Shown here in pieces: positions 1 through 24,490 of a DNA stretch of 38,248 nucleotides (the stretch's first letter is position 1; every line of letters starts with the position of its first letter). Where the stretch lies: the NCBI GenBank assembly GCA_905235585.1, contig CAJOME010000004.1:1-38248 (forward strand), given 5' to 3'. The position numbers and the translations under genes were made by a program. The notes beneath the pieces were generated by a model that made no database searches, was not told the DNA's origin, and was given only the letters and a program-made list of their open reading frames with translations. Source of the stretch: an uncultured Lachnospiraceae bacterium (GTDB lineage: Bacteria; Bacillota; Clostridia; Lachnospirales; Lachnospiraceae).

Positions 1-65
1 GCTTCTGTCGCTGCAGACAGTCCCGCAGGGCCGGCTCCTATTATGATCAGATCATATCTCTTCAT
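1..65 (-). CDS. FAD-dependent oxidoreductase, N-terminus only
   Basis: Only the first 21 codons are inside the window; the rest lies beyond base 1. They read MKRYDLIIIGAGPAGLSAAT, a textbook FAD-binding Rossmann start (beta strand, then GxGxxG). The ATG overlaps the TGA of the upstream 2Fe-2S gene as ATGA, so the two are translationally coupled. A small 2Fe-2S protein directly followed by an FAD oxidoreductase is the arrangement of HcnA/HcnB (hydrogen cyanide synthase) and OoxA/OoxB (opine oxidase), where the pair forms an amine dehydrogenase. The exact substrate cannot be read from 21 residues. Confidence 0.85.
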   Translation of the reverse strand, partial: MKRYDLIIIGAGPAGLSAATE

Positions 66-406
66 CTGACTGCCTCCCGCTGTTCCTTAAACGGTATGTC
101 ACTTACTCCGTATTGTGTCCTGACATCCATCCCCTCTTTAAGCGGTGTGATGCAGGTACGTACATTAGGAATGCCGTCGACTACCATCACACAATCCGTG
201 CAGCGTCCGATAGCACAGAATACCCCTCTTGGGCTGTGTCCCTTTTTTGTGTATCTGTGTACCATCACTCCTGCTGCCTTAAGTGCCACCGCCACCGGCT
301 CACCCTCATATCCGTATATCTCTTTTCCGTCATATGAAAAGCTTACGCGTCTTCCTTTTTCGGTATTTCCCAATATCGGATGTTCTGATATCCTGTGTGC
401 CATCAT
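62..406 (-). CDS. Small (2Fe-2S)-binding protein, HcnA/OoxA-like subunit
   Basis: This 114-residue protein is essentially one ferredoxin-like domain. The cluster motif is CAIGRCTDC at about residues 64-72 with a fourth Cys at about 85 (C-x4-C-x2-C-x12-C). The small subunits of opine and cyanide-forming amine oxidases and the N-terminal part of sarcosine oxidase alpha subunits have this form. It probably passes electrons from the FAD subunit encoded next (ATGA overlap). There are two adjacent ATGs (406 and 403) behind GGGGAG; the second has the better spacing. It follows two ornithine-cyclodeaminase-family genes after a 26-nt gap. The family is clear; the substrate is not known. Confidence 0.85.
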   Translation of the reverse strand: MMAHRISEHPILGNTEKGRRVSFSYDGKEIYGYEGEPVAVALKAAGVMVHRYTKKGHSPRGVFCAIGRCTDCVMVVDGIPNVRTCITPLKEGMDVRTQYGVSDIPFKEQREAVR

Positions 407-432
407 CTTCTCCCCGTCATTCCTGTCATCTG

Positions 433-1569
433 TCAGACCATCTCAGGCTTGTCCCAAAGCCTTAATGGCGTACCTATTCCCATTGAAACAGCCTTCTCAT
501 AGCATATCTTCCCCCATGCCACATCCTCTACGGGCATACCTCCCACGGAGAATATGACGATATCGTTATCATCCCGTCTCGCTTCAGCTTTGCCGCATAT
601 GATATCACCCAGATCCGTTATTTCGTCCTTATTGATAAGCCCGTCATGTATCATATCCGTAAACTTTGATCCGATTATGTTGTTCGCTCCGAATGAAGGA
701 TATGGGAACTCCTCCGCCCATGCCTCATACAGCGCAGTATTGTCTACTACCAGAGAGCAGCTTCCAGCCATGAAATCTGCCGAAAGCTCAAAGCAGCTTA
801 CACCTATCACGAGAGCTCCGGGCTTCAGCCACCCGCCCTCCACATAAGGATAGGTAGATGGATCGGTATTTCCGGAGTTTGCAAAGCAGACTACGTCCGT
901 ATCCCTTACGAGCTCCTCTACAGTGTCCACTGCGTATATCCTTTCAACCTTTGGATACTGCTTTCTCGCTTTTGCCACAAAAGCATCAAGTGAAGCCTGT
1001 CCTCTGCCCTTTACCTTTATCTCGCTGATACTCTCACAGGTATCCATGATGGCTTCCAAAGATGTGCTTCCCATGACTCCCGGACCGCATATCCCACACA
1101 CTCTCGCATCCCTTGATGCCAGATATCTTGCTCCGACACCGGGGATAGCTCCTGTGCGCATCGCGCTGAGTATATTTGCAGACATCAGCGCAATCGGTGC
1201 TCCCGTATCCTTGTCATTCAGCATCACCGTAAGTATTGACCTTGGCAGACCTTTTGTTTTGTTATTACTGTTGCTCCCGTACCATTTCATACCTGCAAGG
1301 TCAAAGGAGCCGCCAAGATAGGCAGGCATGGCCATGAACCGCCTGTCATCTCCCTCATCTAAAGGCATATTCGGAAACTTTGAGGTCTTCGGAAAGGATA
1401 ACTGGCTGCCATGCGAATTGTGATTGGCTCCGCCCATCACATAGTCACCGCTTCTTAAGCACTTTATCACCTCTTCCATGGTATCTATACAGGCTCTCAT
1501 GTCCCTGACACCGGCCTTTATCATGTCCTCTTCAGACAGAAATAAAAAATCTATAGTCGGATAGCTCAT
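433..1569 (-). CDS. Ornithine cyclodeaminase / mu-crystallin family protein, paralog 1
   Basis: 378 residues, a little longer than classical ornithine cyclodeaminases (about 330-350). Family landmarks are visible: an active-site lysine region (AGMKWYGSNSNN), the arginine segment SAMRTGA, and a Rossmann nucleotide-binding loop GPGVMG at about 163-168. The segment after the Rossmann fold reads LVIGVSCFELSADF, where OCD carries its catalytic Asp (GGD context); that Asp seems to be absent. The protein may therefore be an imine reductase or amino-acid dehydrogenase rather than a lyase. Public annotation sometimes calls close relatives 'tyramine oxidase subunit B', without firm biochemistry as far as I know. 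The start has GGGAG six bases upstream. It lies 12 nt after its paralog, in the PII-pot unit. Confidence 0.85.
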   Translation of the reverse strand: MSYPTIDFLFLSEEDMIKAGVRDMRACIDTMEEVIKCLRSGDYVMGGANHNSHGSQLSFPKTSKFPNMPLDEGDDRRFMAMPAYLGGSFDLAGMKWYGSNSNNKTKGLPRSILTVMLNDKDTGAPIALMSANILSAMRTGAIPGVGARYLASRDARVCGICGPGVMGSTSLEAIMDTCESISEIKVKGRGQASLDAFVAKARKQYPKVERIYAVDTVEELVRDTDVVCFANSGNTDPSTYPYVEGGWLKPGALVIGVSCFELSADFMAGSCSLVVDNTALYEAWAEEFPYPSFGANNIIGSKFTDMIHDGLINKDEITDLGDIICGKAEARRDDNDIVIFSVGGMPVEDVAWGKICYEKAVSMGIGTPLRLWDKPEMV

Positions 1570-1581
1570 ATATTTCTCCCA

Positions 1582-2730
1582 TCATTTCATGTACGGTTCA
1601 TCCCAGAGATTCAGCCTGGTTCCTATGCCGAGCATCCTCGCCCGTTCGTAGCATTCATATCCCCACGACAGATCCTCCAAGGGCATGCCGCCTATGGAAC
1701 ACATGATTATCTCATCCTTACTCTCCCTGCCTTTTTTGACGCCGTTTACTATATCGCACAGATCGAGTACGTTCTTTCTGTCGGTTTTTCCGGTGTCCAC
1801 CAGATGTACAAAGTGAATCCCCATAATGCACCACTCACGTTTATTGCCAAGCTCGTCTGTCTCTCCTCTTGCCATGAAGTTGCTGAGATATTTCTGATAC
1901 ATACCGTAGTTATCCACTACCATTTTGGTACTGAGGAAGTCATCAAACTGTCTGTAGAGAAACGATCCCATACTGAATACGGTAGCTCCCTTCTTGAACC
2001 ACTCGATATGAAACTCCTCCATATCAGCCTTGCTCACCGACATCGCCTCGGAGACCACATCGGCATCACTGCATGCCTCCCTGAGACTGGCGCATATCTC
2101 TATCTCCTTAACATTCGGATATTTTTCTTCTATAAAGCTCTTCATCTCAAGAGCCGTCCTTGATGATAGGCTGCTCCCTCTCAGCTTTATCTTCTTTATA
2201 TTTGGCAATACCCTCATATAGCACATGAGCGCGCATTTATTGATCACTCCGGGTCCGATCAGCGAAAGCACTTCGGCATCGGGATCGGCAAGTAGGGTGG
2301 CTGCCATCGCCGGCATCGCTCCTGTCCTCATGGCAGACAGCAGATTTGCCGACATCACCGCCACAGGAGCTCCGGTATCCACATCAGAGAGAGTGACCAT
2401 AAGTATGGACCGCGGGAGTCCCCTGGATGAATTATGGCTGTTTGAGCCGTAATACTTCTGTCCTGCTATATGAAATCTCCCTCCTATATATGCGGGCATC
2501 GCCATAAATCTGCGGTCAGGTCCGTCATCTATGGGAAATCCCTCTATATCCGAGGTCTGGGGGAAGTTCATCTGCAGGCCGTGTTCATCCCCTTTTGGTC
2601 CTCCGAGCAGAAAATCATGCTTCCCGAAAAGCATCATGGTCTCACGCATGGTTGCCATACACCGCGAGGCATCCATGACTCCGGCCTCTATCATGTCCTT
2701 TTCATTCAGGTACAGAAAGTCTATGCTCAT
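1582..2730 (-). CDS. Ornithine cyclodeaminase / mu-crystallin family protein, paralog 2
   Basis: 382 residues and clearly homologous to the neighbouring 378-residue protein along its whole length: shared FLYLNEKDMI-type start, AGQKYYGSNSHN, SAMRTGA, GPGVIN nucleotide loop and a matching C-terminal LWDEP. It differs where the OCD catalytic Asp would lie (SMGSFLYRQFDD) and carries a longer, charged insertion near residues 290-310. Two adjacent diverged copies suggest a hetero-oligomer or two successive steps. The start has AGGAG six bases upstream, inside the end of potD (3-nt intergenic gap), so it is co-transcribed with the transporter. The family is confident; the reaction is unknown. Confidence 0.85.
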   Translation of the reverse strand: MSIDFLYLNEKDMIEAGVMDASRCMATMRETMMLFGKHDFLLGGPKGDEHGLQMNFPQTSDIEGFPIDDGPDRRFMAMPAYIGGRFHIAGQKYYGSNSHNSSRGLPRSILMVTLSDVDTGAPVAVMSANLLSAMRTGAMPAMAATLLADPDAEVLSLIGPGVINKCALMCYMRVLPNIKKIKLRGSSLSSRTALEMKSFIEEKYPNVKEIEICASLREACSDADVVSEAMSVSKADMEEFHIEWFKKGATVFSMGSFLYRQFDDFLSTKMVVDNYGMYQKYLSNFMARGETDELGNKREWCIMGIHFVHLVDTGKTDRKNVLDLCDIVNGVKKGRESKDEIIMCSIGGMPLEDLSWGYECYERARMLGIGTRLNLWDEPYMK

Positions 2731-2733
2731 GCG

Positions 2734-3786
2734 TCACTCCTTCAGTTTTGTCCACATCTCGTCATATACTGCCAGTGTATCGGCATCCAGATATTTTACA
2801 AATTCGCCGTTTTTTATTACCTCAGCCGGCACGTTTTTTGCCTGATTGGACACATAATCATCTCCCATAAGCTCCAGTGCTTTCTTATTCGGACAAAGGT
2901 ATGGAAACTCGGATATATTTTCCTTAGCGGCATCCGCGCTCAACATATAGTTTATGAACTTCATTGCATTATCGTAGTTTCTGGCGCCTTTGGGTACCAC
3001 CCAGTTGTCCAGGAATACATATGCTCCCTCCGAGGGATATACGATCTCTATGTCAGGGTTTTCTTCCATCGCCATGGCAATCTCCGCGGACCACACCATG
3101 CCAACCGCGCAGTCACCTGATATAAGTGCTGATTTAGGTGAGTCGGAATCATACAGCCTGACATTCTGTTTCAGACTCATGAGCTTCTCCTGTATTTCCG
3201 ACAGCACTGTGCGATCCGTCTCATTCATCGAATATCCCATACTCCGCGCAGTCATGCCTATAACAGCACGTGTATCATCCAGCACAACGATCTGTCCCTC
3301 CAGTGCCGGATCAAAGAGATCATCATAGGACGTTATTTCTCTGTCCACCTTCGATGTATTCACGGCAATGCAGGCCACACCTCCCTCATATGGTACAGAA
3401 TACAGATTACCCGGATCATACGAGGGATCGAGATAAGAATCATCTATATTTTTCAGATTGGGCAGCTCCTCCCTGTCAAGCTTCTCCAGCTTGTCCTGAG
3501 CCACAAGATATTCCACGGCGTAATCACTCGGGAGCAGTACATCATATGCGCCCTCCGACTCTGATTTGAGCTTTGACAGCATATCTTCATTTGAGGAATA
3601 TGTAGATACGTTCACCTTTATACCATACTGATCCTGAAAGTCAGCTATAGCGCCTTCCGATACATATTCCGTCCATATGAATACGTTCAGCTCTCCGTTA
3701 TCGGTCTTGCCGGCATTTCCGCAACCACTGAGCATCAGCATGGATACTGTTACTGCGAGCAATAAGCTCATCACTTTCTTTTTCAT
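2734..3786 (-). CDS. potD: Polyamine-type ABC transporter substrate-binding lipoprotein
   Basis: 350 residues with a lipoprotein signal peptide (MKKK, hydrophobic stretch, lipobox LSGC with Cys at about 22), so it is anchored outside the membrane. The mature part follows PotD closely: FIWTEYV near the start, LPSDY, a DDTRAVIGM segment, and GMVWSAE. In E. coli PotD the WTEY block, an Asp and Glu in the DDxRE segment and several Trp bind spermidine. Here the Glu position of that segment is Ala, so the ligand may not be spermidine. It is last of the transporter genes (order A-B-C-D), with GGAGG ahead of the ATG. Confidence 0.9.
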   Translation of the reverse strand: MKKKVMSLLLAVTVSMLMLSGCGNAGKTDNGELNVFIWTEYVSEGAIADFQDQYGIKVNVSTYSSNEDMLSKLKSESEGAYDVLLPSDYAVEYLVAQDKLEKLDREELPNLKNIDDSYLDPSYDPGNLYSVPYEGGVACIAVNTSKVDREITSYDDLFDPALEGQIVVLDDTRAVIGMTARSMGYSMNETDRTVLSEIQEKLMSLKQNVRLYDSDSPKSALISGDCAVGMVWSAEIAMAMEENPDIEIVYPSEGAYVFLDNWVVPKGARNYDNAMKFINYMLSADAAKENISEFPYLCPNKKALELMGDDYVSNQAKNVPAEVIKNGEFVKYLDADTLAVYDEMWTKLKE

Positions 3787-3808
3787 AGCTAAACCCTCCT
3801 CTTTTTAT

Positions 3809-4612
3809 CTATGTCTCAGTATATTTCCTATGAAACAGGTCTCCCTGAGTCAGTACCACAAATACGGCAGTTACAATGAGTATCAGAGTAGACAGCGCAT
3901 TGACATCAGGCGCCACACCGCTCTTTACGCTTTCCATTACCTTAAGCGGATATGTCTTGGTCTGACCATATACAAAATAGCTGATGATCACATCATCTAT
4001 CGAGAGTGTGAAAGCAAGCAGAGCTCCGCCTGTTATCCCCGGCATGAGCACCGGTATCGTTATTTCAAAAAATGTCCTCAGCCTGCCCGCTCCGAGATCC
4101 ATGCTCGCTTCTTCTATGGATAGGTCATAGCCGGACAGTCTCGCACGCACATTAAATATCACGAACGGTATGCAAAAGGATACATGCGCAAGCACCAGGG
4201 TAAGCATGCCGCGGGGTATATCCGCTTTGGCGAATATCGTAAGCAGCGATATGCCAAGCACTATCTCAGGTATGACTACGGGAATATAGAGCAGACCATC
4301 TATCAGGGTTTTTCCTCTGAACCTGTACTTATACATACCTATGGCGCCCAGTGTCCCTATCATGGTAGACAATATGGTGCTGATGACTGCCAGCAGCACT
4401 GTAGTTCCAAACGCTTCAAGTAGTGAGCCGTTGCTCCATAGCTTCACATACCAGTCAAACGTGAAGCCCTTCCAGCTCATATATGGCTTTGTATTTGTCG
4501 CGTTGAAGGAATTGACCACTATTACCGCTATAGGCAGGAAGAGAAACAGATAGACCACCGCGCAATATATGGCCATACATATTCTTTTGTTTTTTTCTTT
4601 ACGTGTCATCAT
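3809..4612 (-). CDS. potC: Polyamine-type ABC transporter permease (PotC-like)
   Basis: Inner-membrane permease of about 268 residues with six predicted membrane spans and the permease EAA loop (EASMDLGAGRLRTFFEITIP) that contacts the ATPase. The longest reading frame starts at 4633, but that start would overlap potB by 17 nt and lacks a spaced ribosome site. The tandem ATGs at 4612/4609 follow the potB stop (4617) and suit GGGGGT upstream. It pairs with PotB to form the channel. Length and motif match PotC; substrate specificity is assigned only by family. Confidence 0.9.
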   Translation of the reverse strand: MMTRKEKNKRICMAIYCAVVYLFLFLPIAVIVVNSFNATNTKPYMSWKGFTFDWYVKLWSNGSLLEAFGTTVLLAVISTILSTMIGTLGAIGMYKYRFRGKTLIDGLLYIPVVIPEIVLGISLLTIFAKADIPRGMLTLVLAHVSFCIPFVIFNVRARLSGYDLSIEEASMDLGAGRLRTFFEITIPVLMPGITGGALLAFTLSIDDVIISYFVYGQTKTYPLKVMESVKSGVAPDVNALSTLILIVTAVFVVLTQGDLFHRKYTET

Positions 4613-4616
4613 AGCT

Positions 4617-5498
4617 TCATACCCCCAGGGCATCCATATCTCCGCCCAGTCTCTGATATATCTTTACAAGTATCAGAGTAAGCAATATCAGTACGATCGA
4701 GAGCGCTGCTCCGAGAGGCCAGTTGTTTCCGCTTTGAAACTGTCTCTCTATGAGATTGCCTATCATGTCCGAGTTGCCTCCGCCCAGTATGTCCGATACA
4801 AAGAAGTATCCAAGACATGGGATGAATACCATCAGACTGCCCGAAAAGATCCCGCCGGACGTAAGCGGCAATATCACTTCAAGAAATGTCCTGGCAGGGT
4901 GCGCTCCCAGATCATATGATGCCTCAAGGAGCGAAGCGTCCAGCTTTTCTATCGCTGTGTAAAGAGGCAGTATCATAAAAGGTATCAGGCAGTACACCAT
5001 GCCCAGTATGGTGGTGCCGTTACGGTACAGCATATCTATCGGTCCATCCGTGATGTGTAATGCGATGATTAGCGAATTCAGCCAGCCGTTTGTGCCAAGG
5101 AAGCTCCTCCACCCGTATATCCTTATCAGTGAATTGGTCCAAAACGGTATGATCACGAGCATATATAACACCTTTTTTCTGCGGCTCTTTGTTCTCGCTA
5201 TGATATACGAAAAGGGATACCCTATCAGTATGCACAGTATTGTCGTTACGAATGCGATAAACAGAGACCTCGCGTATATACGCATATAGTCCGCATCCAT
5301 CAGCCTGACGTAGTTATCCATCGTCAGATCAGATGTGACATTGTAAAACTCATCTATTGAGCAAAAGCTCATTGCCGCCACATATATCAGCGGTATCGCC
5401 ACAAGCAGCACCATGACGAGTGTCACCGGTCCGACCATGAGGATCGCGGAGAGTGTATCCGGCCTTATCCTTCTTTTTTGTGTTCTCTCGATGTCCAT
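4617..5498 (-). CDS. potB: Polyamine-type ABC transporter permease (PotB-like)
   Basis: 293 residues, six predicted membrane spans beginning at about residue 20, and the EAA motif EASYDLGAHPARTFLEVILP near residue 210. It is the first permease of the transporter. The start ATG has AAGGAG at a normal distance and follows potA by 15 nt. Its stop lies 4 nt ahead of the preferred potC start, consistent with coupled translation. Confidence 0.9.
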   Translation of the reverse strand: MDIERTQKRRIRPDTLSAILMVGPVTLVMVLLVAIPLIYVAAMSFCSIDEFYNVTSDLTMDNYVRLMDADYMRIYARSLFIAFVTTILCILIGYPFSYIIARTKSRRKKVLYMLVIIPFWTNSLIRIYGWRSFLGTNGWLNSLIIALHITDGPIDMLYRNGTTILGMVYCLIPFMILPLYTAIEKLDASLLEASYDLGAHPARTFLEVILPLTSGGIFSGSLMVFIPCLGYFFVSDILGGGNSDMIGNLIERQFQSGNNWPLGAALSIVLILLTLILVKIYQRLGGDMDALGV

Positions 5499-5513
5499 AT
5501 GAAAAGCTCCTTT

Positions 5514-6623
5514 TTACGCAAGCCTTATGTCATTCAATGCCTCAAAGATATAGTGACTCTCATTATGTATCAGTACGGCATCTGACGGGATCCAATAGGG
5601 GTAGCATCTGCTTCCAACCGGCGGCAGCTCCTGTCCGGCAAGTCTTTCTATCTTTAGCTCATTTCCGTTAGGCAATGACACTATGCATTTGAGCACAGAG
5701 CCCACATAGATATAGTCCTTTACCTGTGCCTGCAGTCCGAATCCCTCCACCGGTGATGACGAAAACCTCATCTTTTCCGGCCTCACCGATACAGTGGCAT
5801 ATTCGAGTATCGAAAAGTCATCCGGACAGGCTACGGATACTATACCGTTCTCCAGCGTCATGACAGCGACCCCGTCTGTTATCGAAGATATGCATCCGTC
5901 ATATGTATTAGTCTCGCCTATAAAGGTAGCCACGAATCTGGTCGCGGGGTGCTCATATATCTCTGTAGGAGTCCCGAGCTGATCTATCACGCCGTCATGC
6001 ATGACCGCGATACGGTCACTCATAGTCAGGGCTTCCTCCTGATCATGTGTGACATATATGAATGTGATATTCAGCTTTTTCTGTAACCTTTTAAGCTCTA
6101 TCTGCATCTGTTTTCTGAGCTTTAGATCCAGTGCTCCGAGCGGCTCATCCAAAAGAAGCACCCTCGGTCTGTTGATGAGTGCCCTCGCTATCGCTACCCT
6201 CTGCTTCTGTCCGCCTGACAGCTGGCTCGGATATCTTTTTTCAAAGCCGCCAAGCTGCACCATCTCCATCATTTCGGCGACACGCTCTTTTATCTCTGCC
6301 TTTGGCACCTTTTTCATCTTCAGTCCGTAGGCGATATTGTCATATATAGTTTTGTGAGGAAAAAGCGCATACGACTGGAAGACCGTATTTACATTCCTTT
6401 CATACGGCTCTTTTTCTTCTATGGGCTCTCCCTCTACGCGGATACTTCCGCTCGTAGGCTCCTCAAAGCCGGCTATCATCCGCAGTGTAGTGGTCTTGCC
6501 GCAGCCGGATGAGCCAAGCAGTGTCAGGAATTCTCCCTCACCTACGCTGAGGTTCATATTACGTACCACATGATTGGTTCCATATATTTTGTTTACGCCT
6601 TCTATTTCAACTATATTTTTCAT
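5514..6623 (-). CDS. potA: Polyamine-type ABC transporter ATPase (PotA-like)
   Basis: 369 residues. Walker A GSSGCGKTTT lies near residue 38, then the Q-loop region (NTVFQSYALFPH), the ABC signature LSGGQKQR, Walker B VLLLDEPLGALD and the switch His in YVTHDQEEA. The C-terminal third (about 240-369) is the TOBE regulatory domain typical of PotA/CysA-type ATPases. It is the first transporter gene, 23 nt downstream of the PII gene, so the sensor and the transporter are probably on one message. RBS AGAGGTG is present. Confidence 0.93.
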   Translation of the reverse strand: MKNIVEIEGVNKIYGTNHVVRNMNLSVGEGEFLTLLGSSGCGKTTTLRMIAGFEEPTSGSIRVEGEPIEEKEPYERNVNTVFQSYALFPHKTIYDNIAYGLKMKKVPKAEIKERVAEMMEMVQLGGFEKRYPSQLSGGQKQRVAIARALINRPRVLLLDEPLGALDLKLRKQMQIELKRLQKKLNITFIYVTHDQEEALTMSDRIAVMHDGVIDQLGTPTEIYEHPATRFVATFIGETNTYDGCISSITDGVAVMTLENGIVSVACPDDFSILEYATVSVRPEKMRFSSSPVEGFGLQAQVKDYIYVGSVLKCIVSLPNGNELKIERLAGQELPPVGSRCYPYWIPSDAVLIHNESHYIFEALNDIRLA

Positions 6624-6646
6624 GGGATCACCTCTTTATCCGCTGA

Positions 6647-7018
6647 TCACAGGGCTCTGTCTCCCCTTTCTCCCGTACGGATGCGCACGGCATCCTCCAC
6701 ATTTCTGATAAAGATCTTGCCGTCTCCCACATGGTCGGTAGCGCATACCTCCCTCACCTTTGCGATGATAGGCTCCACGAACCTGTCCTCCACCACGACC
6801 TCCGCCTTCACCTTGGGAAGCAGGTTGATGGTCGTCCTAAAGCCCTTCAGCTCGTTTACGGATTTCTCCGCGCCCTCGTCCGCAGTATCGCTGATACCCT
6901 TTTGGGTGCCGCAGCCCATCACGGTAGACAGCGTCATGCCGCCGCAGTTTATCTCATCCAGGATCGCCTTGATATCCTCAAGTCTTTCAGGTCTTACCAG
7001 CATCACCAGTTCTTTCAT
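6647..7018 (-). CDS. PII family nitrogen signalling protein with extended, tyrosine-free T-loop
   Basis: 123 residues of the GlnB/GlnK fold: start MKELVMLVRPERLEDIKAIL, QKG turn at 39-41, LPKVKAEVV strand, B-loop VGDGKIF at 97-103 and C-terminal RIRTGE. PII trimers sense ATP/ADP and 2-oxoglutarate and bind targets through the T-loop. Here the T-loop (about 37-65) is about 11 residues longer than in GlnB, and the usual uridylylated Tyr51 is absent (Glu at 51). Control by GlnD-type uridylylation is therefore unlikely. It is first in the unit with potABCD and amine-metabolism genes rather than next to amtB, suggesting the transporter or enzymes as partner (inference). RBS GGAGG lies seven bases upstream of the ATG. 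Confidence 0.92.
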   Translation of the reverse strand: MKELVMLVRPERLEDIKAILDEINCGGMTLSTVMGCGTQKGISDTADEGAEKSVNELKGFRTTINLLPKVKAEVVVEDRFVEPIIAKVREVCATDHVGDGKIFIRNVEDAVRIRTGERGDRAL

Positions 7019-7022
7019 ACAG

Positions 7023-7133
7023 CATCCTCCTCTCAGTACCGGGTTCGTTGGATCGAATAGGGAGGATGTGATCGCACCCTACTCGCCGCGTGGTCCGTGC
7101 CCGGCTGTGCCGGGAGAATCCCCTGCACGGACC
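7023..7133 (-). promoter_or_regulatory. Structured PII leader with possible ribosome-site sequestration
   Basis: Reading the minus-strand RNA, a 9-bp outer stem (GGUCCGUGC, 7133-7125, with GCACGGACC, 7100-7092) encloses a CCGGC/GCCGG hairpin. Then UAGGG (7081-7077) can pair with CCCUA (7062-7058). The overlapping CAUCCUCC (7068-7061) is a perfect 8-nt complement of GGAGGAUG (7030-7023), which contains the PII Shine-Dalgarno. The two pairings exclude each other, as in translational riboswitches. I do not recognise a known riboswitch class. Confidence 0.45.
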
Positions 7134-7144
7134 TGTGCATACAA

Positions 7145-7175
7145 AAAGAGGCTCGCCTTACGGACAAGCCTCTTT
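7145..7175 (-). terminator. Terminator/attenuator hairpin in the PII leader
   Basis: An 11-bp stem (AAAGAGGCTTG with CGAGCCTCTTT) with a 9-nt loop, followed on the minus strand by a run of T. It lies between the LuxR gene stop and the PII start, but downstream of the promoter at 7200-7228. It can therefore end read-through from the glnN operon and also attenuate the PII transcript. Confidence 0.75.
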
Positions 7176-7199
7176 GCTTAACGGTCATCTTTTTCGTGA

Positions 7200-7228
7200 A
7201 TTATATGACCGGACAAGAGTCTTTTCAA
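7200..7228 (-). promoter_or_regulatory. Sigma-A-type promoter of the PII-pot unit
   Basis: TTGAAA (7228-7223), a 17-nt spacer and TATAAT (7205-7200), a near-perfect vegetative promoter. The predicted start is near 7193, giving a leader of about 175 nt before the PII ATG at 7018. Confidence 0.75.
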
Positions 7229-7267
7229 TTCATTTAATTTACCATTTTTATGATCAAAAAGTATTAG

Positions 7268-8017
7268 TCACTCATACTCCTTGACCATCTTGAAGAGCTG
7301 TACACGATTCTTTATGCCAAGCTTTCTGTATATGTTCAGGATATGCTTTTTCAGCGTGTTTGGACTGATCACAAGCTCATCACAGATACCGGCGGTATCC
7401 GTACCGGACATCAGCAGCTTCAGGATCGCGTGTTCTTTTCTCGTGCATCCATATTTCTCAGCAGCCTCTGTTACCGTCAGTTTGCCGTTAGCGTCATTTC
7501 CGCTGGCACGCTGCTGCTCAAGACGATAGGCAAGATGGTCTTTCAGTATATCAAGTACGAAGATATCATCATACCTGAAGTCTTCCTTGCCTATGGTACG
7601 GTAAAATGTGATCGCTGCAAGAAAATGCTTATGCTTTGCTATGACTGCCTGTAGCGCGTAATGCCAGTTATTTGGTCTGTATACCTTTTTATAGTAGTCT
7701 GTCTCTACTCTCACCTCATCCGATATGATGTCGGTTTCCCTGTATATGAGCATCTTCCCGCTGCCTACGATCCCCCGGCTGTAGTCTATATCCTCATACG
7801 CTTCGGACAGATCTATGTCGCAGTTATATGTCACGGGATCACATAGCAGTCTGCCCTCTTTGTCAGATGCCATATAGAAGTCAGCACTGTCAAAGTCTAT
7901 CACCATCTTTAGCTGCTCCAGCAGGTCATAGCGCATGCTGTCAAAGTCCGGGGTTGTATATATCCTGTAGATTATATTATTCAGTAAAAGCCAGTCATTC
8001 GCCTCTAACTTCTTCAT
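7268..8017 (-). CDS. LuxR-family transcriptional regulator (sensor-like N-terminus)
   Basis: 249 residues. The last 65 or so form a LuxR/FixJ-type helix-turn-helix (YGCTRKEHAILKLLMSG, then ISPNTLKKHILNIYRKLGI). The first about 165 residues look like a GAF-type sensing domain (LLEQLKMVIDFDSADFYMAS). There is no receiver domain with a phosphorylatable Asp in the usual context. It follows gltD by 20 nt with no clear Shine-Dalgarno, so translation is probably coupled to gltD and the gene belongs to the glnN-gltB-gltD unit. A role in controlling nitrogen genes is plausible from position only. Confidence 0.85.
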   Translation of the reverse strand: MKKLEANDWLLLNNIIYRIYTTPDFDSMRYDLLEQLKMVIDFDSADFYMASDKEGRLLCDPVTYNCDIDLSEAYEDIDYSRGIVGSGKMLIYRETDIISDEVRVETDYYKKVYRPNNWHYALQAVIAKHKHFLAAITFYRTIGKEDFRYDDIFVLDILKDHLAYRLEQQRASGNDANGKLTVTEAAEKYGCTRKEHAILKLLMSGTDTAGICDELVISPNTLKKHILNIYRKLGIKNRVQLFKMVKEYE

Positions 8018-8037: not shown

Positions 8038-9549
8038 CTACGATACCCTTATGTTTGTATAGCCCATCAGATATCTGTCTGCCTCAGCGGCGCAGGCTCT
8101 TCCCTCGGCTATCGCCCATACCACAAGCGACTGGCCTCTGTGCATGTCTCCTGCGGTAAATATCCTGTCAGCTGAAGTATGATAGCTGTCGGCTCCGGTA
8201 CTCACCGTGCTTCTTTCCGTAAGAGCGACTCCGAAGGTATCGGCAGCATATCTCTCGCACCCCGTAAATCCGGCTGCTATCAGCAGCATATCACAGGGCA
8301 GCTCTTTCTCGGAGCCCTCTACGAGCTCCATCTTATGTCCGTTAAATCGGACACCTGATATGATTATCTTCCTGAGACAGCCCTTCTTGTCGGTGATATA
8401 TTCCTTTACAGTAGTCTCATATAGCCTCGGATCATGCCCGAAGAGCTTTATTGCCTCCTCATGACCATAATCGGTCTTCAGCACCTTCGGCCATTCGGGC
8501 CACGGGTTTGTATCTGTCCTGTCCTTTGGCGGCATGGGCATCATCTCCAGTGCGGTCACGGATCTGCAGCCATGCCTTATGACCGTACCTATACAGTCAT
8601 TTCCCGTGTCGCCGCCCCCGACCACGACTACATGCTTATCCCTTGCCGATATAAAATCCCTGCCCTTCATAAACTCTTCCGTACTCAGCCTGTCTGCCGC
8701 GCCGTTACGATCAAGCAGTGATCTTGTCGTGCTCTTAAGAAAATCAACTGCGTAATATATTCCCTTTATCTTCTCCGGGTCGGCACCGGGCAGAGCCCTT
8801 GCCTGCTTTGCTCCGCAGGCGAGCACTATAGCATCATAGTCCTTCAGAAGCTCCGATGCCTGTATGTCCTTTCCGACATCGATCCCTGTCCTGAATAAGA
8901 CGCCCTCCTCCTCCATGAGCCTTTGTCTTCTTATGATGACGGATTTGTCCAGCTTCATATTCGGTATGCCATACATCAAAAGACCGCCTATCCTGTCCTC
9001 TCTCTCGTATACGGTCACGGTATGTCCTCTGTGGTTCAGCTCGTCCGCTGCCGCCAGTCCCGCGGGACCCGAGCCTATGACGGCTATCCTCTTACCGCTC
9101 CTTATCTTAGGTATGACGGGCTTTATATAGCCGTTTGCGAATGCGCTCTCTATAATGTACAGCTCATTATCGTGTACCGTGACCGGCTCGCCATACTCTC
9201 CGTTTATGCATGCTTTCTCACACAATGCCGGACATACCCTGCCCGTAAACTCCGGAAAATTGGAGGTCTTTACCAGTCTCGACAGAGCATGCTCCGTATG
9301 TCCGTGATACAAAGCATCATTCCATTCGGGGATAAGGTTGTGGAGCGGACATCCCGTGACCATACCCTTCAGCTTCATCGCCGACTGGCAGAAGGGCACT
9401 CCGCAGTCCATGCATCTCGCTCCCTGTTCCCTGCGCTTTTCATCACTTAACGGCAGATGAAACTCGCTAAAATTCTTTATCCTTTCATCTACGGGAATAT
9501 CCGTATTGTTTTCCCTTTCATATTCAAGAAATCCTGTTGCCTTGCCCAT
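8038..9549 (-). CDS. gltD: Glutamate synthase small (beta) subunit
   Basis: 503 residues. N-terminal iron-sulfur region CMDCGVPFCQ and GCPLHNLIPEWND, then two Rossmann motifs: IAVIGSGPAGLAAA near residue 153 (FAD) and VVVVGGGDTGNDC near 310 (NADPH). The C-terminal TAGDMHRGQSLVVWAI is typical of the family. It supplies electrons from NAD(P)H to GltB for converting glutamine plus 2-oxoglutarate into two glutamates. It follows gltB by 21 nt; GGGAGG precedes the ATG. Length is normal. Confidence 0.96.
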   Translation of the reverse strand: MGKATGFLEYERENNTDIPVDERIKNFSEFHLPLSDEKRREQGARCMDCGVPFCQSAMKLKGMVTGCPLHNLIPEWNDALYHGHTEHALSRLVKTSNFPEFTGRVCPALCEKACINGEYGEPVTVHDNELYIIESAFANGYIKPVIPKIRSGKRIAVIGSGPAGLAAADELNHRGHTVTVYEREDRIGGLLMYGIPNMKLDKSVIIRRQRLMEEEGVLFRTGIDVGKDIQASELLKDYDAIVLACGAKQARALPGADPEKIKGIYYAVDFLKSTTRSLLDRNGAADRLSTEEFMKGRDFISARDKHVVVVGGGDTGNDCIGTVIRHGCRSVTALEMMPMPPKDRTDTNPWPEWPKVLKTDYGHEEAIKLFGHDPRLYETTVKEYITDKKGCLRKIIISGVRFNGHKMELVEGSEKELPCDMLLIAAGFTGCERYAADTFGVALTERSTVSTGADSYHTSADRIFTAGDMHRGQSLVVWAIAEGRACAAEADRYLMGYTNIRVS

Positions 9550-9570: not shown

Positions 9571-12500
9571 CTATTGAGCTGTCACGGCTGCAAAGGCCTC
9601 CAGCTCCGCATTCTCGCGCGAGAGCCCCTGCTCCTCAAAGCGTCCTATGGCTGTCAGCATCTTCTGATAGTCACGCGGTATGATCTTCTTGAAATCACCC
9701 ACATGCTCCTTAAAATGCCTGAGCACCTCCCCGGCGAGCTTTGATCCCGTCTCCTTCTCATAGTCAGTGAGTATGGTCCTGAGCTCTTCGATATCATACT
9801 TATCCTTGAGCTCCTCCATATTCACCATGTCCTTATTGATACGTCTGTACAGCAGATGATCCCTGTCGAGCACATAAGCTATGCCTCCGCTCATACCGGC
9901 CGCAAAGTTCTTGCCGGTGGGACCGAGTATCACCGCTCTTCCGCCTGTCATATATTCCAGTCCGTGATCACCCACTCCTTCACACACGGCTGTGGCTCCC
10001 GAGTTTCTCACACAGAATCTCTCACCCGCAATGCCGCATATGTACGCCTTTCCGGAGGTTGCCCCATAGAGCGCAACATTTCCAATGATGATATTTTCTG
10101 ACGCACTGAATATTGATTCTTTAGGAGGAATCACTATGAGTTTTCCTCCGGAAAGACCTTTGCCGAATCCGTCGTTCGCATCCCCCGTAAGCCTGACGGT
10201 TACTCCCCTGGGTATGAATGCCCCGAACGACTGGCCGCCTCCGCCGGCAGCCTCTATCATGTATGTATCGTCAGGCAGTCTGTCCTGACCGTATCTCTTC
10301 GTCACCTCCGACCCGAATATCGTGCCGAATGCCCTGTCCGTACTGGACACCTCTATCTTTACACTGTTCTTTTTCTTATCCATCATCGGGAGCAGCACCC
10401 TCTCGTCCGGTGTACGCTCCGTATGAAAGTCGTACAGACTCCCTGCCTCAAAATGCCTCTTTTCGGCTCTCGCGTATGAAGGATCGAGTATATAGCTCAT
10501 GTCCACACACTTCGCGCGGTTCGTCATGAGTTGTTCCCTGACCTTAAGGCAGTCGGTACGCCCTATCATGTCCTCTACCCTGCTGAAGCCGAGATATGCC
10601 ATGATCTCTCTGAGCTCCTCTGCGATAAAATGCATGAAGTTTATGATATATTCCGGCTTTCCCGCAAATCTCTTTCTCAGCTTCTCATTCTGCGTGGCTA
10701 TCCCCACAGGGCAGGTGTCCTTGGAACACACCCTCATCATCATACAGCCCATGCATACGAGCGGAGCCGTGGCAAAGCCATACTCCTCCGCGCCGAGCAG
10801 TGCCGCTATCGCTACATCTCTGCCCGACATCAGCTTGCCGTCTGTCTCAAGCACCACCCTGTCTCTCAGCCCGTTTTCTATCAGACTGTGATGAGCCTCG
10901 GCCACCCCGAGCTCCCATGGGAGCCCTGCCCCGTGTACCGATGAGTACGGTGCCGCACCGGTGCCTCCGTCATATCCCGATATGAGTATGAGTCCTGCGC
11001 CGGCCTTTGCCACGCCGGACGCTATGGTGCCTACACCGGTCTCCGATACGAGCTTTACCGATATCCTTGCCTCACGGTTAGCATTCTTCAGATCATATAT
11101 GAGCTCCGCCAGATCCTCTATGGAGTAGATATCATGGTGAGGCGGAGGTGATATAAGCGCCACTCCGGGTGTCGAGCATCTTATCTTCGCCACCCACGGG
11201 TACACTTTTTTGCCCGGCAGATGTCCTCCCTCTCCGGGCTTTGCGCCCTGCGCCATCTTTATCTGTATCTCTTTCGCAGATCCGAGATAGGCAGAGGTCA
11301 CACCGAACCTCCCGGATGCCACCTGCTTTACGGCGGAGTTTCTTATGGTGCCAAAGCGTTCCGGATCCTCACCGCCCTCACCGGTATTGGATCTGCCGCC
11401 TATCGTATTCATCGCTACAGCTATGGTCTCATGAGCCTCCTTTGACAGAGAGCCGTATGACATGGCTCCTACCTGAAATCTCTTTACGATCTCATCCGCG
11501 CTTTCCACTTCTTCTATGGGTATACTCTTCCCTGCCGGGACGAAATCAAGGAGTCCCCTGAGTGTATGCGGTCTTGTGTCATCATCGACCATACCCGAAT
11601 AGACCTTAAACTGTTCATAGTCGCCCTTTCGTACAGCCTGCTGAAGATTGACTATGGTCTCGGGATTATAAAGATGATCTTCTTTATCCCTTCCGGATCT
11701 CAGGCTGTGAAATCCTGTGGAATCGAGTGACGTATCCACTCCAAGCCCCAGAGGATCAAAGGCATGATCATGTCTGAAGGCCGTCTCTTCTTCTATCTCC
11801 CTGAGTCCTACGCCTCCCACACGGCTGACCGTCCCCGTGAAATATCTGTTTATCACATCCTTTGAAAGACCCACCGCCTCAAAGATACGTGCCGACTGAT
11901 AAGACTGTATGGTGGATATGCCCATCTTGGCGGCTATCTTCACCACACCCGAAAGAAGTGCCTTATTATAGTCATCTATGGCGGTATGATAATCCTTGTC
12001 CAGTATGCCCCTGTCTATGAGCTCTGCTATACACTCATGCGCGAGATACGGATTGATCGCTCTCGCTCCAAAGCCCAAAAGCGCCGCCATATGATGCACA
12101 TCTCTTGGCTCACCGCTCTCGAGTATCAGCGACACCGCAGTCCTCTTCTTTGTCCTGACCAGATGCTGCTCCACCGATGACACGGCAAGAAGTGACGGTA
12201 TGGGTACATGGTTCTCATCCACTCCCCTGTCCGAGAGTATGATGATATTGCTGCCCTCCGCCACGGCGCGGTCTACCGCTATATCCAGCTGCTCCAGTGC
12301 TTTCTCCAGCGAGGTATTCTTATAGTAGAGGAGCGACAGCACTCCGGTCTTAAAGCCCGGTCTGTCAAGATGGCGTATCTTCAGCAGATCCACCCCTGTC
12401 AATATGGGATGGTTCACCTCCAGGACTCTGCAGTTATCATCCTTTTCATTCAGCAGGTCTCCGTCAGAGCCTATATAGACCGTAGTATCGGTCACGATCT

Positions 12501-14079
12501 TTTCCCTCAGTGAATCTATGGGCGGATTTGTGACCTGCGCAAAAAGCTGCTTGAAATAATCAAAGAGAAGCGGATGCTCGCCTGAAAGTACGGCAAGAGG
12601 CACATCATGTCCCATCGATACTGTCTGCTCCACGGCATTTTCCGCCATGGGAAGTATCTGCTTCATGACATCCTCATAGCTGTAGCCGAATGCCTTGTAC
12701 AGCTTATCCCTCGTCTCCTGATCATGGGTGTCTATCTTTTTGTTGGGTATCTGAAGCTTTGACAGATGCAGCAGTCCCCTGTCGATCCACTCTCCGTACG
12801 GGCTGCGGTTCGCGTATCTGCTCTTACACTCCTCATCCGATATTATCCGCTTCTGCTTCGTGTCCACGAGCAGCATCTTGCCGGGCTCAAGCCTCGACTT
12901 TTTTACTATATGTTCAGGAGCTATATCAAGGACACCTACCTCGGAGGAGAGTATCAGTCTCCCGTCATCCGTCACATAGTATCTGGACGGTCTCAGACCG
13001 TTGCGGTCAAGCGTGGCGCCGAGCAGCTCACCGTCGGAAAAGATGATCGCCGCGGGACCGTCCCAGGGCTCCATCATGGTGGCATAGTAATGATAAAAAT
13101 CCTGCCTGTTCCTGTCCATGTATTCATCATGCTTCCACGGCTCGGGGATCGTGATCATCATGGCAAGCGGCAGCTCCATACCGTTCATGTACAGAAATTC
13201 AAGAGTATTGTCGAGCATTGCGGAATCCGATCCCGATGAAGAGATCACAGGATATATCTTATCGATATCCTCCTTCAGTATACCCGGGCGCATAGTCTCC
13301 TCACGCGCGAGCATCCTGTCGGCATTTCCCCGTATCGTATTTATCTCACCGTTGTGCGCGATCATGCGGTAGGGATGCGCTCTGTTCCATGAGGGAGTGG
13401 TATTGGTCGAAAACCTCGAATGTACTATGGCTATAGCCGTCTCATAGTCAGTATCTCTGAGATCATCATAAAAGCTTCTCAGCTGACCTACAAGGAACAT
13501 ACCCTTATACACTATCGTCCTTGACGAGAGCGAACAGATATAGGTATCCTCCGACGACTGCTCAAACTCCCGTCTTATCACATAGAGCCTGCGGTCGAAC
13601 TCAATGCCTTTTTCGACATTCTTCGGACGCTCTATCACGCACTGCTCTATGGACGGCATACAGTCTGCGGCAGCCTTTCCGAGTATACCGGGCTTTGTCG
13701 GCACCTTTCTCCAGCCGACAAATCTCATGCCCTCCTTTTCCGTAATGACCTGCATCATCCTTTTTGCGAAGGTGCGTTTCATATCGTCGGACGGAAGGAA
13801 AAACATGCCTATGCCATAGTCGCCCTCATCGCCGATCTCAATGCCTGACTCAGCCAGAGCCTTACTGAAAAACCTGTGGGATATCTGCAGCAATATGCCC
13901 ACTCCGTCCCCGACCTCACCGGTCGCGTCCTTTCCGGCTCTGTGCTCGAGCTTCTCCACTATGGACAGGGCATCGGACAGCACCATGTTGTCCCTGTGCC
14001 CGTCTATATTTACGATAGTCCCTATGCCGCATGCGTCATGCTCTGCGGCATAGGAACCGCACATATTGTTTTTATTCAT
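9571..14079 (-). CDS. gltB: Glutamate synthase large (alpha) subunit
   Basis: 1502 residues, full length. After a 16-residue propeptide-like start comes the class II amidotransferase nucleophile (DACGIGT, Cys17), which needs processing to free the Cys. Central and FMN-binding synthase domains follow (GGRSNTGEGGEDP, then GYDGGTGAAPYSS), the cluster motif CSKDTCPVGIATQ, and a C-terminal Gly-rich beta-helix domain (GEGVGDHGLEYMTGG). It hydrolyses glutamine and channels ammonia to 2-oxoglutarate. The ATG has AGGAGGAG upstream and lies 41 nt after the glutamine synthetase stop, so product and consumer enzymes share an operon. Confidence 0.97.
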   Translation of the reverse strand: MNKNNMCGSYAAEHDACGIGTIVNIDGHRDNMVLSDALSIVEKLEHRAGKDATGEVGDGVGILLQISHRFFSKALAESGIEIGDEGDYGIGMFFLPSDDMKRTFAKRMMQVITEKEGMRFVGWRKVPTKPGILGKAAADCMPSIEQCVIERPKNVEKGIEFDRRLYVIRREFEQSSEDTYICSLSSRTIVYKGMFLVGQLRSFYDDLRDTDYETAIAIVHSRFSTNTTPSWNRAHPYRMIAHNGEINTIRGNADRMLAREETMRPGILKEDIDKIYPVISSSGSDSAMLDNTLEFLYMNGMELPLAMMITIPEPWKHDEYMDRNRQDFYHYYATMMEPWDGPAAIIFSDGELLGATLDRNGLRPSRYYVTDDGRLILSSEVGVLDIAPEHIVKKSRLEPGKMLLVDTKQKRIISDEECKSRYANRSPYGEWIDRGLLHLSKLQIPNKKIDTHDQETRDKLYKAFGYSYEDVMKQILPMAENAVEQTVSMGHDVPLAVLSGEHPLLFDYFKQLFAQVTNPPIDSLREKIVTDTTVYIGSDGDLLNEKDDNCRVLEVNHPILTGVDLLKIRHLDRPGFKTGVLSLLYYKNTSLEKALEQLDIAVDRAVAEGSNIIILSDRGVDENHVPIPSLLAVSSVEQHLVRTKKRTAVSLILESGEPRDVHHMAALLGFGARAINPYLAHECIAELIDRGILDKDYHTAIDDYNKALLSGVVKIAAKMGISTIQSYQSARIFEAVGLSKDVINRYFTGTVSRVGGVGLREIEEETAFRHDHAFDPLGLGVDTSLDSTGFHSLRSGRDKEDHLYNPETIVNLQQAVRKGDYEQFKVYSGMVDDDTRPHTLRGLLDFVPAGKSIPIEEVESADEIVKRFQVGAMSYGSLSKEAHETIAVAMNTIGGRSNTGEGGEDPERFGTIRNSAVKQVASGRFGVTSAYLGSAKEIQIKMAQGAKPGEGGHLPGKKVYPWVAKIRCSTPGVALISPPPHHDIYSIEDLAELIYDLKNANREARISVKLVSETGVGTIASGVAKAGAGLILISGYDGGTGAAPYSSVHGAGLPWELGVAEAHHSLIENGLRDRVVLETDGKLMSGRDVAIAALLGAEEYGFATAPLVCMGCMMMRVCSKDTCPVGIATQNEKLRKRFAGKPEYIINFMHFIAEELREIMAYLGFSRVEDMIGRTDCLKVREQLMTNRAKCVDMSYILDPSYARAEKRHFEAGSLYDFHTERTPDERVLLPMMDKKKNSVKIEVSSTDRAFGTIFGSEVTKRYGQDRLPDDTYMIEAAGGGGQSFGAFIPRGVTVRLTGDANDGFGKGLSGGKLIVIPPKESIFSASENIIIGNVALYGATSGKAYICGIAGERFCVRNSGATAVCEGVGDHGLEYMTGGRAVILGPTGKNFAAGMSGGIAYVLDRDHLLYRRINKDMVNMEELKDKYDIEELRTILTDYEKETGSKLAGEVLRHFKEHVGDFKKIIPRDYQKMLTAIGRFEEQGLSRENAELEAFAAVTAQ

Positions 14080-14120
14080 AACTATGACTCCTCCTGACAG
14101 CGCTTAGTCATGATTTATAC

Positions 14121-16214: not shown

Positions 16215-16230
16215 ATTATTGCCCTCCTTT

Positions 16231-16268
16231 TAATATTTATAGGAAGTTTGGCTTTGCCAAACTTCGAG
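16231..16268 (-). repeat. Leader direct repeat, copy 1 (hairpin before glnN RBS)
   Basis: A 38-bp unit identical to 16317-16354. On the minus strand it forms GAAGTTTGGC-AAA-GCCAAACTTC, a 10-bp stem with a triloop, then an AT-rich stretch that runs directly into the glnN Shine-Dalgarno. Confidence 0.9.
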
Positions 16269-16316
16269 GGGTCGCTCACTTTGATTAACAGCTGTGGGCG
16301 CGTCCCCCATCTCCTT

Positions 16317-16354
16317 TAATATTTATAGGAAGTTTGGCTTTGCCAAACTTCGAG
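16317..16354 (-). repeat. Leader direct repeat, copy 2 (upstream)
   Basis: Perfect 38-bp copy of 16231-16268, 86 bp upstream in the same leader, again followed by AAAGGAG and, here, an ATG. A tandem duplication of the ribosome-proximal hairpin is the simplest origin. Confidence 0.9.
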
Positions 16355-16359
16355 ACCAC

Positions 16360-16395
16360 AAAAAAAGCCGCCGGAGGACATACTCCTCCTGCGAC
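16360..16395 (-). terminator. Second terminator (T2) in the glnN leader
   Basis: On the minus strand GTCGC-A-GGAGGA pairs with TCCTCC-G-GCGGC around a GTATG loop, followed by seven T. Pairing is complete except for one internal mismatch and one G-U pair. It lies within the leader, downstream of the promoter and upstream of glnN, so it must be read through for expression. Confidence 0.75.
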
Positions 16396-16420
16396 CCCAT
16401 TGTCGTACTGATATATCTGT

Positions 16421-16458
16421 AAAAAAATAAAGACACTTGGACTGATCCAAGCGCCTTT
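16421..16458 (-). terminator. First terminator (T1) in the glnN leader
   Basis: A 13-bp stem (AAAGGCGCTTGGA with TCCAAGTGTCTTT, two G-U pairs) with a 4-nt loop and a T-rich tail. It begins about 9 nt after the predicted start, resembling the hairpins in front of PII and asnB. Confidence 0.8.
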
Positions 16459-16473
16459 GCTTTTACGAACTGT

Positions 16474-16502
16474 ATTGTATACCTGTTTCATCTGTCTTGC
16501 AA
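16474..16502 (-). promoter_or_regulatory. Promoter of the glnN-gltB-gltD unit
   Basis: TTGCAA (16502-16497), 17-nt spacer, TACAAT (16479-16474). Predicted start near 16467, just after the carB stop at 16511, leaving a leader of about 250 nt. Confidence 0.7.
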
Positions 16503-16510
16503 GATGTTTT

Positions 16511-19753: not shown

Positions 19754-19756
19754 CTT

Positions 19757-20836: not shown

Positions 20837-20841
20837 CACTG

Positions 20842-24130
<3,289 letters not shown>

Positions 24131-24418: not shown

Positions 24419-24490
24419 CAGGGGAAGAGGGATTCGAACCCCCATGAGCGGTTTTGGAGACCGCCAGGCTAGCCATTGCATCATTCCCCT
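24419..24490 (-). tRNA. tRNA-Trp (anticodon CCA)
   Basis: 72 nt. The seven-pair acceptor stem AGGGGAA/TTCCCCT has discriminator G. Anticodon stem GCGGT/ACCGC closes loop CTCCAAA with anticodon CCA, and the T arm has loop TTCGAAT. The D stem pairs three of four. The 3' CCA is not encoded. A clean promoter lies at 24548-24576. Confidence 0.93.

Follow-up and report, generated by a model that had tools for sequence, protein, structure and literature searches.

The closest described counterpart of the operon considered here, which lies at the start of a contig of an uncultured Lachnospiraceae bacterium and is headed by a PII-like gene followed by those of a PotABCD-type importer, is PotN of Lentilactobacillus hilgardii. 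The potN gene presumably lies within the potABCD operon of that bacterium. PotN, a PII-like protein, is used together with the C-terminal domain of PotA of the polyamine transporter in a dye-labelling study (PMC9692440), which cites Iskhakova 2022 for PotN. NrtC, NrtD, and UrtE are ATP-binding cassette (ABC) ATPases with established PII binding (PMC6603209); these pairs and GlnK-AmtB set the precedent of PII acting on nitrogen transporters, ABC ATPase subunits included, but they involve other transporter families, and the PII studied here lacks Tyr51 and the YRG motif and shares its operon with catabolic enzymes. A review of polyamines and nitrogen assimilation treats PotABCD and PII separately in the part available to us (PMC9397018). 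The window, that is, the whole stretch analyzed, is the entire contig C4 (38,248 bases), and reading ends at its base 1. Its PII-like protein is encoded next to the PotA of a polyamine-type importer and belongs to the same clade as PotN, but in the window the operon goes on to genes of amine catabolism and comes with a conserved unit of LuxR and leader. Joining PII to a polyamine transporter is therefore prior art, and the statement in an earlier interpretation made from the DNA letters alone (the sequence-only reading) that no described system has PII in such an operon must give way to PotN (PDB 7O4X). Among the literature matches listed, none dealt with PII alongside a module of ornithine cyclodeaminase (OCD) family enzymes and an oxidase (with or without an iron alcohol dehydrogenase, Fe-ADH) or alongside an APC permease, a weak negative, as most subscription journals were outside the coverage.

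Nine minus-strand genes, PII-potA-potB-potC-potD-OCDa-OCDb-2Fe-2S-FAD, are all present (Table 1), with the tight spacing that the sequence-only reading had described: the distances from PII to FAD are 23, 15, -17, 22, 3, 12, 26, and -4 nucleotides, a range of -17 to 26. The importer consists of four subunits of the PotABCD families, of which only PotA scores over its cut-off, PotB, PotC, and PotD staying under their equivalog cut-offs. The importer and the oxidase parts bear out the proposed combination of amine uptake with a 2Fe-2S/FAD oxidase.

Table 1. Features of the PII-pot operon and its neighbors in the window.
Feature	Position	Strand	Evidence
FAD subunit start (Pyr_redox_2, SoxA-like), ATG at 65, 21 codons, cut by contig end	1..65	-	86% match to residues 1-21 of relative's FAD
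2Fe-2S (Fer2_4) subunit of four-part oxidoreductase	62..406	-	PF13510 102.5 bits
OCDb, OCD/mu-crystallin enzyme, common to APC-type clusters and proteobacterial plasmids	433..1569	-	NF004848 534.8 bits
OCDa, diverged OCD/mu-crystallin paralog accompanying potABCD	1582..2730	-	NF004848 396.8 bits
PotD-like lipoprotein	2734..3786	-	best NF007048 241 bits, < cut-off 582
PotC permease	3809..4633	-	best NF007047 266.5 bits, < cut-off 326
PotB permease	4617..5498	-	best NF007044 280.6 bits, < cut-off 348
PotA, ABC ATPase with TOBE domain, proposed PII target	5514..6623	-	TIGR01187 374.6 bits > cut-off 355.6; PF08402
PII, PotN subfamily, expanded T-loop without YRG	6647..7018	-	PF00543 83.9 bits; PDB 7o4x E 1.5e-22; 26-residue T-loop; clade with PotN
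Leader: palindrome-like box, promoter-like TTGAAA-17-TATAAT, hairpin and T-run	7019..7267	-	conservation of position
LuxR-type (GerE helix-turn-helix) regulator, upstream gene, conserved operon partner	7268..8017	-	PF00196 E 1.3e-13
Glutamate synthase (GOGAT) small subunit, neighbor	8038..9549	-	TIGR01317 617 bits > cut-off 447.7
GOGAT large subunit, neighbor	9571..14079	-	by eye from translation

The operon order LuxR-PII-potABCD-OCDa-OCDb-2Fe-2S-FAD-BFD-DAO-Fe-ADH recurs across Lachnospiraceae; the adjacency, for which the sequence-only reading had proposed a neighborhood search, is neither unique to this genome nor a matter of chance. The loci counted below (L numbers; G numbers are genomes) are the best 80 of 562 confirmed matches obtained when the genome collection was scanned using an OCD alignment, and the counts favor near relatives. 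Some records contribute two loci, and among all loci of the analysis L046/L082, L047/L075, L038/L126, L066/L152, L083/L198, and L151/L204 are pairs with the same DNA. PII presence was typed by tblastn and a script, with absence in 23 of the 80 loci confirmed by a PII hidden Markov model over the available stretch; PotABCD-type transporters were defined by at least 55% identity to those of the window, and close APC permeases by at least 50% identity to three reference permeases. A PII gene lies inside the module in 57 of the 80 loci, and its presence tracks the transporter: 24 of 25 PotABCD-type loci (the exception, L072, begins inside potA), 30 of 31 close-APC loci (all except L134), none of the 11 with a more distant APC permease, both Amt loci, and 1 of 11 without a labelled transporter, several of these being cut by contig ends. 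PII ends 17 to 55 nucleotides before potA in 21 of the 24 PII-pot loci (237 in L092, a partial operon) and at most 148 nucleotides from the APC gene in 27 of 30 loci. In 20 of the 24 PII-pot loci, PII is preceded by a LuxR homolog less than 2 kb away. OCDa, assigned by best BLAST reference, is found in all 25 pot loci and in none of the 42 APC loci, and Fe-ADH (above 50%) in 19 and 0, respectively. Carriers of the pot type include Pseudobutyrivibrio, Lachnospira, Coprococcus, and Acetatifactor metagenome-assembled genomes (MAGs), those of the APC type Anaerostipes, Ruminococcus callidus, Treponema, and Olsenella.

Samples picked independently of OCD, with 100 genomes of the family and 398 of the phylum, contained NF004848 proteins over the cut-off in 13 and 4 genomes, respectively. 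Using PII-type profiles with a line at E < 1e-50 (the next matches were 1.7e-42 and 7.1e-43), pot-type PII was found in 8 of the 100 family genomes, the OCD module adjoining it in 4 of the 8, and APC-type PII at 7 places in 6 genomes, with an NF004848 gene less than 2 kb away in all 7. These figures are partly circular, as 2 of the 8 pot-type and 4 of the 7 APC-type matches are themselves profile rows and the APC profile was built solely from OCD-linked PIIs; 3 of the 7 are new. A phylum-wide search with the pot-type profile, which also retrieved many weaker PIIs, does not enter the counts.

A PII tree built from 100 rows unites the pot-linked PIIs with PotN (PDB 7o4x) in a single clade (34 rows, support 99/94*), and PotN groups in the same way in another tree (99/88*). 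The APC-linked PIIs form a second clade (37 rows, 100/99*) next to four Amt-fused PIIs. The window PII is 46% identical to PotN, and 7o4x is its second-best PDB match. As controls we used 20 unfused PIIs from a truncated E-value-ranked list, which is not a random sample; their neighbors are amt in 15 of 20 and pot in 3 of 20, with one cut (L148) and one having no labelled neighbor (L155). The control T-loop has 15 residues, with YRG in 13 of 17. The PIIs of the pot-type OCD operons have T-loops of 19 to 26 residues with the motif NE[IFL][KRQ]G..T.[IL]NLLPK in 25 of 26 rows, L036 having 15 residues and no motif, while the APC-linked T-loops have 15 to 16, largely acidic, residues and that of PotN has 17, with KG replacing YRG. 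Tyr51 is absent from all 26 pot-type rows, in which Q39, K58, K90, R101, and R103 are kept throughout; Q39 is replaced by Glu in 20 of the 37 APC-linked PIIs. Lacking Tyr51/YRG and flanked by luxR and potA, not by amtB, the window PII differs from canonical GlnB and GlnK. In these comparisons the T-loop type follows the transporter type, which, given the shared descent of clade, loop, and transporter, is a strong hint and no more.

Beside the pot type, the APC clusters (L039:3216-9702, L094, L104, L107, L118, L128, and others) combine a PII of the separate clade with a permease of the APC amino-acid/polyamine type and with OCDb, usually together with the four-part oxidase that is also found in the pot type. 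Where the pot type has LuxR, AraC-type regulators occur in such clusters (L104:11095-11964, L130:7265-8089, L119:8940-9836, and L114:4728-5600), and two Treponema loci carry a Rid-family (Ribonuc_L-PSP) gene between PII and APC (L111:1666-2064 and L119:11687-12088). An Eggerthella MAG (L091:8119-14200) has an Amt-like gene, PII, OCDb, and the four-part oxidase consecutively. At L199:5702-8885 (G083), a PII of the Amt-linked kind without YRG has an APC permease on one side and a class III aminotransferase on the other, a PII-APC pairing that is apparently independent of the other PII-APC clade.

The importer pocket and the sister operons bear on the cargo. For comparison we used 13 residues that we take to be the pocket positions of Escherichia coli PotD. 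Ten of these are kept in the window PotD (W34, T35, E36, Y37, S83, Y85, D168, W229, D257, and Y293), the changes being E171A, W255F, and Q327V. A171, F255, and V, I, or L at 327, with the other ten positions, are kept in 29 of 30 PotD rows of OCD-type cassettes (L036 differs, and the rows include the same-DNA pairs L046/L082 and L047/L075), and the same altered pocket is found in the sister-locus PotDs of L194, L195, and L197. Four genomes have pot-type PII (E < 1e-50) but lack the OCD module (G026, G017, G054, and G090), and the locus of each carries putrescine aminotransferase and/or aldehyde dehydrogenase (ALDH). The order LuxR-PII-potABCD-ALDH-putrescine aminotransferase is present in G054 (NF008570, 681.5 bits, cut-off 612) and in G026, whose aminotransferase is 86% identical; in the first set of G017, ALDH follows potD; in G090, the aminotransferase (689.7 bits, cut-off 612) comes roughly 1 kb later, beyond an opposite-strand LuxR gene. 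A second PII-pot set of G017 (L196) is followed by a putrescine aminotransferase (667.5 bits), a protein like gamma-aminobutyrate transaminase (under cut-off), and an iron alcohol dehydrogenase. One or both enzymes of the PatA-PatD route (putrescine aminotransferase and ALDH) thus occur in sister LuxR-PII-potABCD operons, whereas in the window operon the OCDs, the four-part oxidase, and Fe-ADH occupy their place. With one pocket in both types of operon, they probably share their cargo, for which putrescine or a closely similar diamine is the simplest candidate.

Both OCD proteins exceed the cut-off (362 bits) of NF004848, named "tyramine oxidase subunit B", and fall far below the true ornithine cyclodeaminase equivalog PRK07589 (51.1 and 65.9 bits, cut-off 350). 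Their second-best NCBIfam family is SbnB (177 and 129.6 bits, under cut-off), and with the LhpI equivalog they reach 44.6 and 30.1 bits (cut-off 400). The best solved relative of OCDb is 4m54, labelled a putative ornithine cyclodeaminase, which we take to be SbnB, an enzyme that splits an opine-like N-linked amino acid. All 19 OCDs aligned have the K(W/Y)YGSN lysine and the GPG motif without variation. OCDb is 53.9% identical (54% when rounded) to an Aminobacter plasmid protein, a member of the proteobacterial NF004848 clusters; there the OCD-Rid-FAD oxidoreductase set appears in 5 of 6 plasmid contexts opened (of 122 records listed or counted), an APC permease being visible in 3 of the 5. These clusters differ from our locus in pairing a Rid hydrolase with a single FAD enzyme that is 24 to 28% identical to the DAO subunit (two compared), and no PII or PotABCD annotation lies less than 9 kb from the triplets in the five contexts opened. 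The oxidase carries the four parts (Fer2, FAD, BFD, and DAO) of the HcnABC/opine oxidase/proline dehydrogenase class, intact in one operon in L046, and in a family-level comparison it shares these 2Fe-2S, FAD, BFD, and DAO parts with HcnABC, OoxAB, and proline dehydrogenase-type enzymes, but here all four are separate genes. The best solved relative of DAO is 1y56_B, labelled sarcosine oxidase.

In the same genome, the end of contig C48 (12043-13080) matches residues 179-524 of the relative's FAD protein at 76%, followed on the same strand by BFD, DAO, and Fe-ADH that are 86, 76, and 67% identical to the L046 copies. It seems that the cut FAD gene continues on C48, which would split the oxidase between the two contigs, with 2Fe-2S and the FAD start on C4 and the remainder on C48. 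Extending the contig, as the sequence-only reading had suggested, stops at base 1, but the genome holds this match on C48. An unrelated reductase, the outcome that would have undone the reading, is unlikely judging from relatives: the intact L046 FAD protein is SoxA-like (best NCBIfam TIGR01372, below cut-off), with PDB matches to sarcosine oxidase alpha and PH1363. Further along C48 are an AmtB-PII fusion of 598 amino acids (L052:7358-9154) and then purF, trpE, and trpG.

The leader between luxR and PII has, in order, a palindrome-like box after the luxR stop, a promoter-like site at 7228-7200, which agrees with the earlier description of a PII-led unit, and a hairpin plus T-run (about 7145-7175); its fold has a z of -3.80, and there is an extra GC-rich hairpin beyond the T-run hairpin. 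The hairpin and T-run occur in 19 of 20 leaders examined (not L062), and a TTG...17...-10 pattern with 7 to 11 of 12 matches in 18 of 20 (not L062 or L078), both counts being made without a shuffled control; over the whole region, promoter matches are at chance level (15 found, 14.0 expected). Leaders of the ALDH/aminotransferase type (L194, L195, L197, and L204) have a similar hairpin by eye, and paired changes in the hairpin were likewise seen by eye only, the MAFFT alignment being out of register there. The case for these elements rests on their conserved position, and the hairpin, if it is a terminator inside the leader, could act as an attenuator. No Rfam family reached its gathering score in the leader, and four sub-threshold matches (Bacteroid-trp, BTnc231, and two microRNAs) were taken as chance.

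Starting from what was observed directly, namely gene order, families, conservation, PII clade and T-loop type, PotD pocket, and the swapped catabolic sets, we lean toward the view that the operon serves to scavenge nitrogen from a diamine resembling putrescine and that PII gates the importer. The LuxR-type regulator and the conserved leader would control transcription. The PotN-subfamily PII would read the ATP/ADP state, possibly also 2-oxoglutarate, and may open or close PotABCD by contacting PotA via its expanded T-loop; a link between PII and transporter is suggested by PII following the transporter type, by the single clade of pot-linked PIIs and PotN, and by the partner-specific T-loops. 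The four-subunit dehydrogenase (2Fe-2S, FAD/NAD-type, BFD 2Fe-2S, and DAO-type FAD) would oxidize the imported amine at its C-N bond, the two presumably NAD(P)-dependent OCD-family enzymes would work alongside it, and Fe-ADH would reduce the resulting aldehyde, so that the process can be near redox-neutral in an anaerobe. The freed nitrogen would enter the glutamine synthetase (GS)-GOGAT route, a role suggested by the AmtB-PII fusion on C48 and by GOGAT, which lies beside the operon as the sequence-only reading had noted and recurs there in 4 of 29 pot-type loci. PII gating, the ligand, the substrate, the cofactors, the reaction order, and the OCD reactions are the predicted parts of this scheme.

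Several observations weigh against it. The title of the work on PotN speaks of energy-state sensing, PotN reportedly senses ATP/ADP rather than 2-oxoglutarate, and the retained Q39 and K58 do not show binding of 2-oxoglutarate. The OCD family name (NF004848) points to tyramine. The grouping with PotN drops to 97/69, unstarred, after removal of four long rows, and as descent confounds PII clade, T-loop, and transporter type, the T-loop match cannot count as independent proof. The cyanobacterial PII-UrtE contact is T-loop independent (PMC6603209). The contrast between close and more distant APC loci is partly built in, as the 50% split and the reference permeases, taken from PII-linked loci, were our own choice; L134 has a close APC permease and no PII, and L080 and L081 carry PII downstream of Fe-ADH, away from potA. 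Six pot loci lack a detected Fe-ADH (five end inside the operon, and L092 is a partial operon), and about 157 FAD codons are unread between C4 and C48. Regarding the cargo, L036, L154, and the second G017 set (L196) have PotDs with other pockets, no putrescine aminotransferase was found in the stretch examined of the first G017 set, and, as E171 and Q327 are lost, the cassette PotD may not bind putrescine in the way of E. coli PotD.

A catabolism of tyramine, phenethylamine, or another monoamine, of the Pseudomonas Tyn kind, would account for the family name of both OCDs, and the lost PotD charges could suit a hydrophobic amine. The label reportedly traces to the tyn genes of Pseudomonas putida U (Arcos 2010), and we take TynB to be the NF004848 protein. 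The plasmid relatives with their Rid hydrolase and FAD-binding oxidoreductase (5 of 6 contexts) point the same way, but sister operons with the same PotD pocket carry putrescine aminotransferase and ALDH, and no aromatic-degradation family appears among the operon's family matches; we consider a monoamine substrate unlikely. The absence of arginase and of any other opine-specific enzyme from the family matches of the ten window and ten C48 genes scanned, with the OCD scores far under PRK07589, counts against catabolism of the Agrobacterium kind, in which PotABCD would import an opine, the 2Fe-2S/FAD/DAO complex would split it, and OCD would process the released amino acid. The oxidase class and the SbnB similarity (as second NCBIfam family of both OCDs, under cut-off, and through 4m54) fit such a pathway, but Agrobacterium-type systems pair an opine-type importer with processing genes, and the importer here is of the polyamine (PotABCD) type. 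Given the putrescine aminotransferase and/or ALDH of the sister operons and OCDs that are not true OCD equivalogs, we set the opine reading aside as very improbable; it had been part of the sequence-only reading, which on the whole is partly supported.

An interconversion of D-amino and imino acids like that of LhpBEF/LhpI, in which the complex would oxidize compounds resembling D-proline or hydroxyproline and the OCDs would be cyclic imine reductases, is the most doubtful of these alternatives. The sarcosine oxidase label of the closest solved DAO relative suits it, and Pseudomonas lhp has the same combination of an OCD-family reductase with a multi-part DAO dehydrogenase, but the LhpI scores are low against the cut-off of 400 bits, and a polyamine-type importer would be unexpected. 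A different objection concerns PII itself, which could be a general regulator of nitrogen metabolism (GS/GOGAT or transcription) that stands first in the pot operon by chance and makes no transporter contact, as the GOGAT genes next door and the displaced PIIs of L080 and L081 might suggest. PII nevertheless tracks the transporter type and stays part of the set where its position has changed, each of the two clades keeps to its own transporter, and the genome has a separate AmtB-PII fusion, all of which makes a chance position distinctly unlikely in our judgment.

The preferred reading, PII-gated scavenging of a diamine, can also be cast in a broader, joint form, which we put forward tentatively and regard as rather unlikely. 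In this form, gut Clostridia would possess PII clades dedicated to Amt (also fused), PotABCD, and APC, with T-loops of their own and each in a nitrogen-salvage operon, and the deaminating enzyme would be interchangeable, either putrescine aminotransferase or OCD with the four-part oxidase. The OCD version would involve no direct deamination of the amine and would amount to a transamination by way of an opine shuttle: OCD would reductively condense the amine with 2-oxoglutarate to an N-substituted glutamate, which the dehydrogenase would convert to aldehyde and glutamate. If this were true, transamination would be governed by a 2-oxoglutarate/ATP sensor.

Upstream of the operon, a nitrogen block runs on the minus strand through window 9571-24130, with genes identified by eye as GOGAT large subunit, type III glutamine synthetase, carB, carA, CTP synthase, and asnB. 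A tRNA lies at 24419-24490 on the minus strand (Rfam, 55.4 bits).

PII is among the most widespread signal proteins, and its well-known membrane partners are few. The PII clades paired with PotABCD and APC, with their partner-specific T-loops, are natural variants from which the choice of transporter by PII could be learned, and a testable function is offered for NF004848, a large clade of the OCD family annotated by name only. The operon may give anaerobes of the gut and rumen a way of drawing nitrogen from putrescine and similar amines, one that we did not find in the literature searched.

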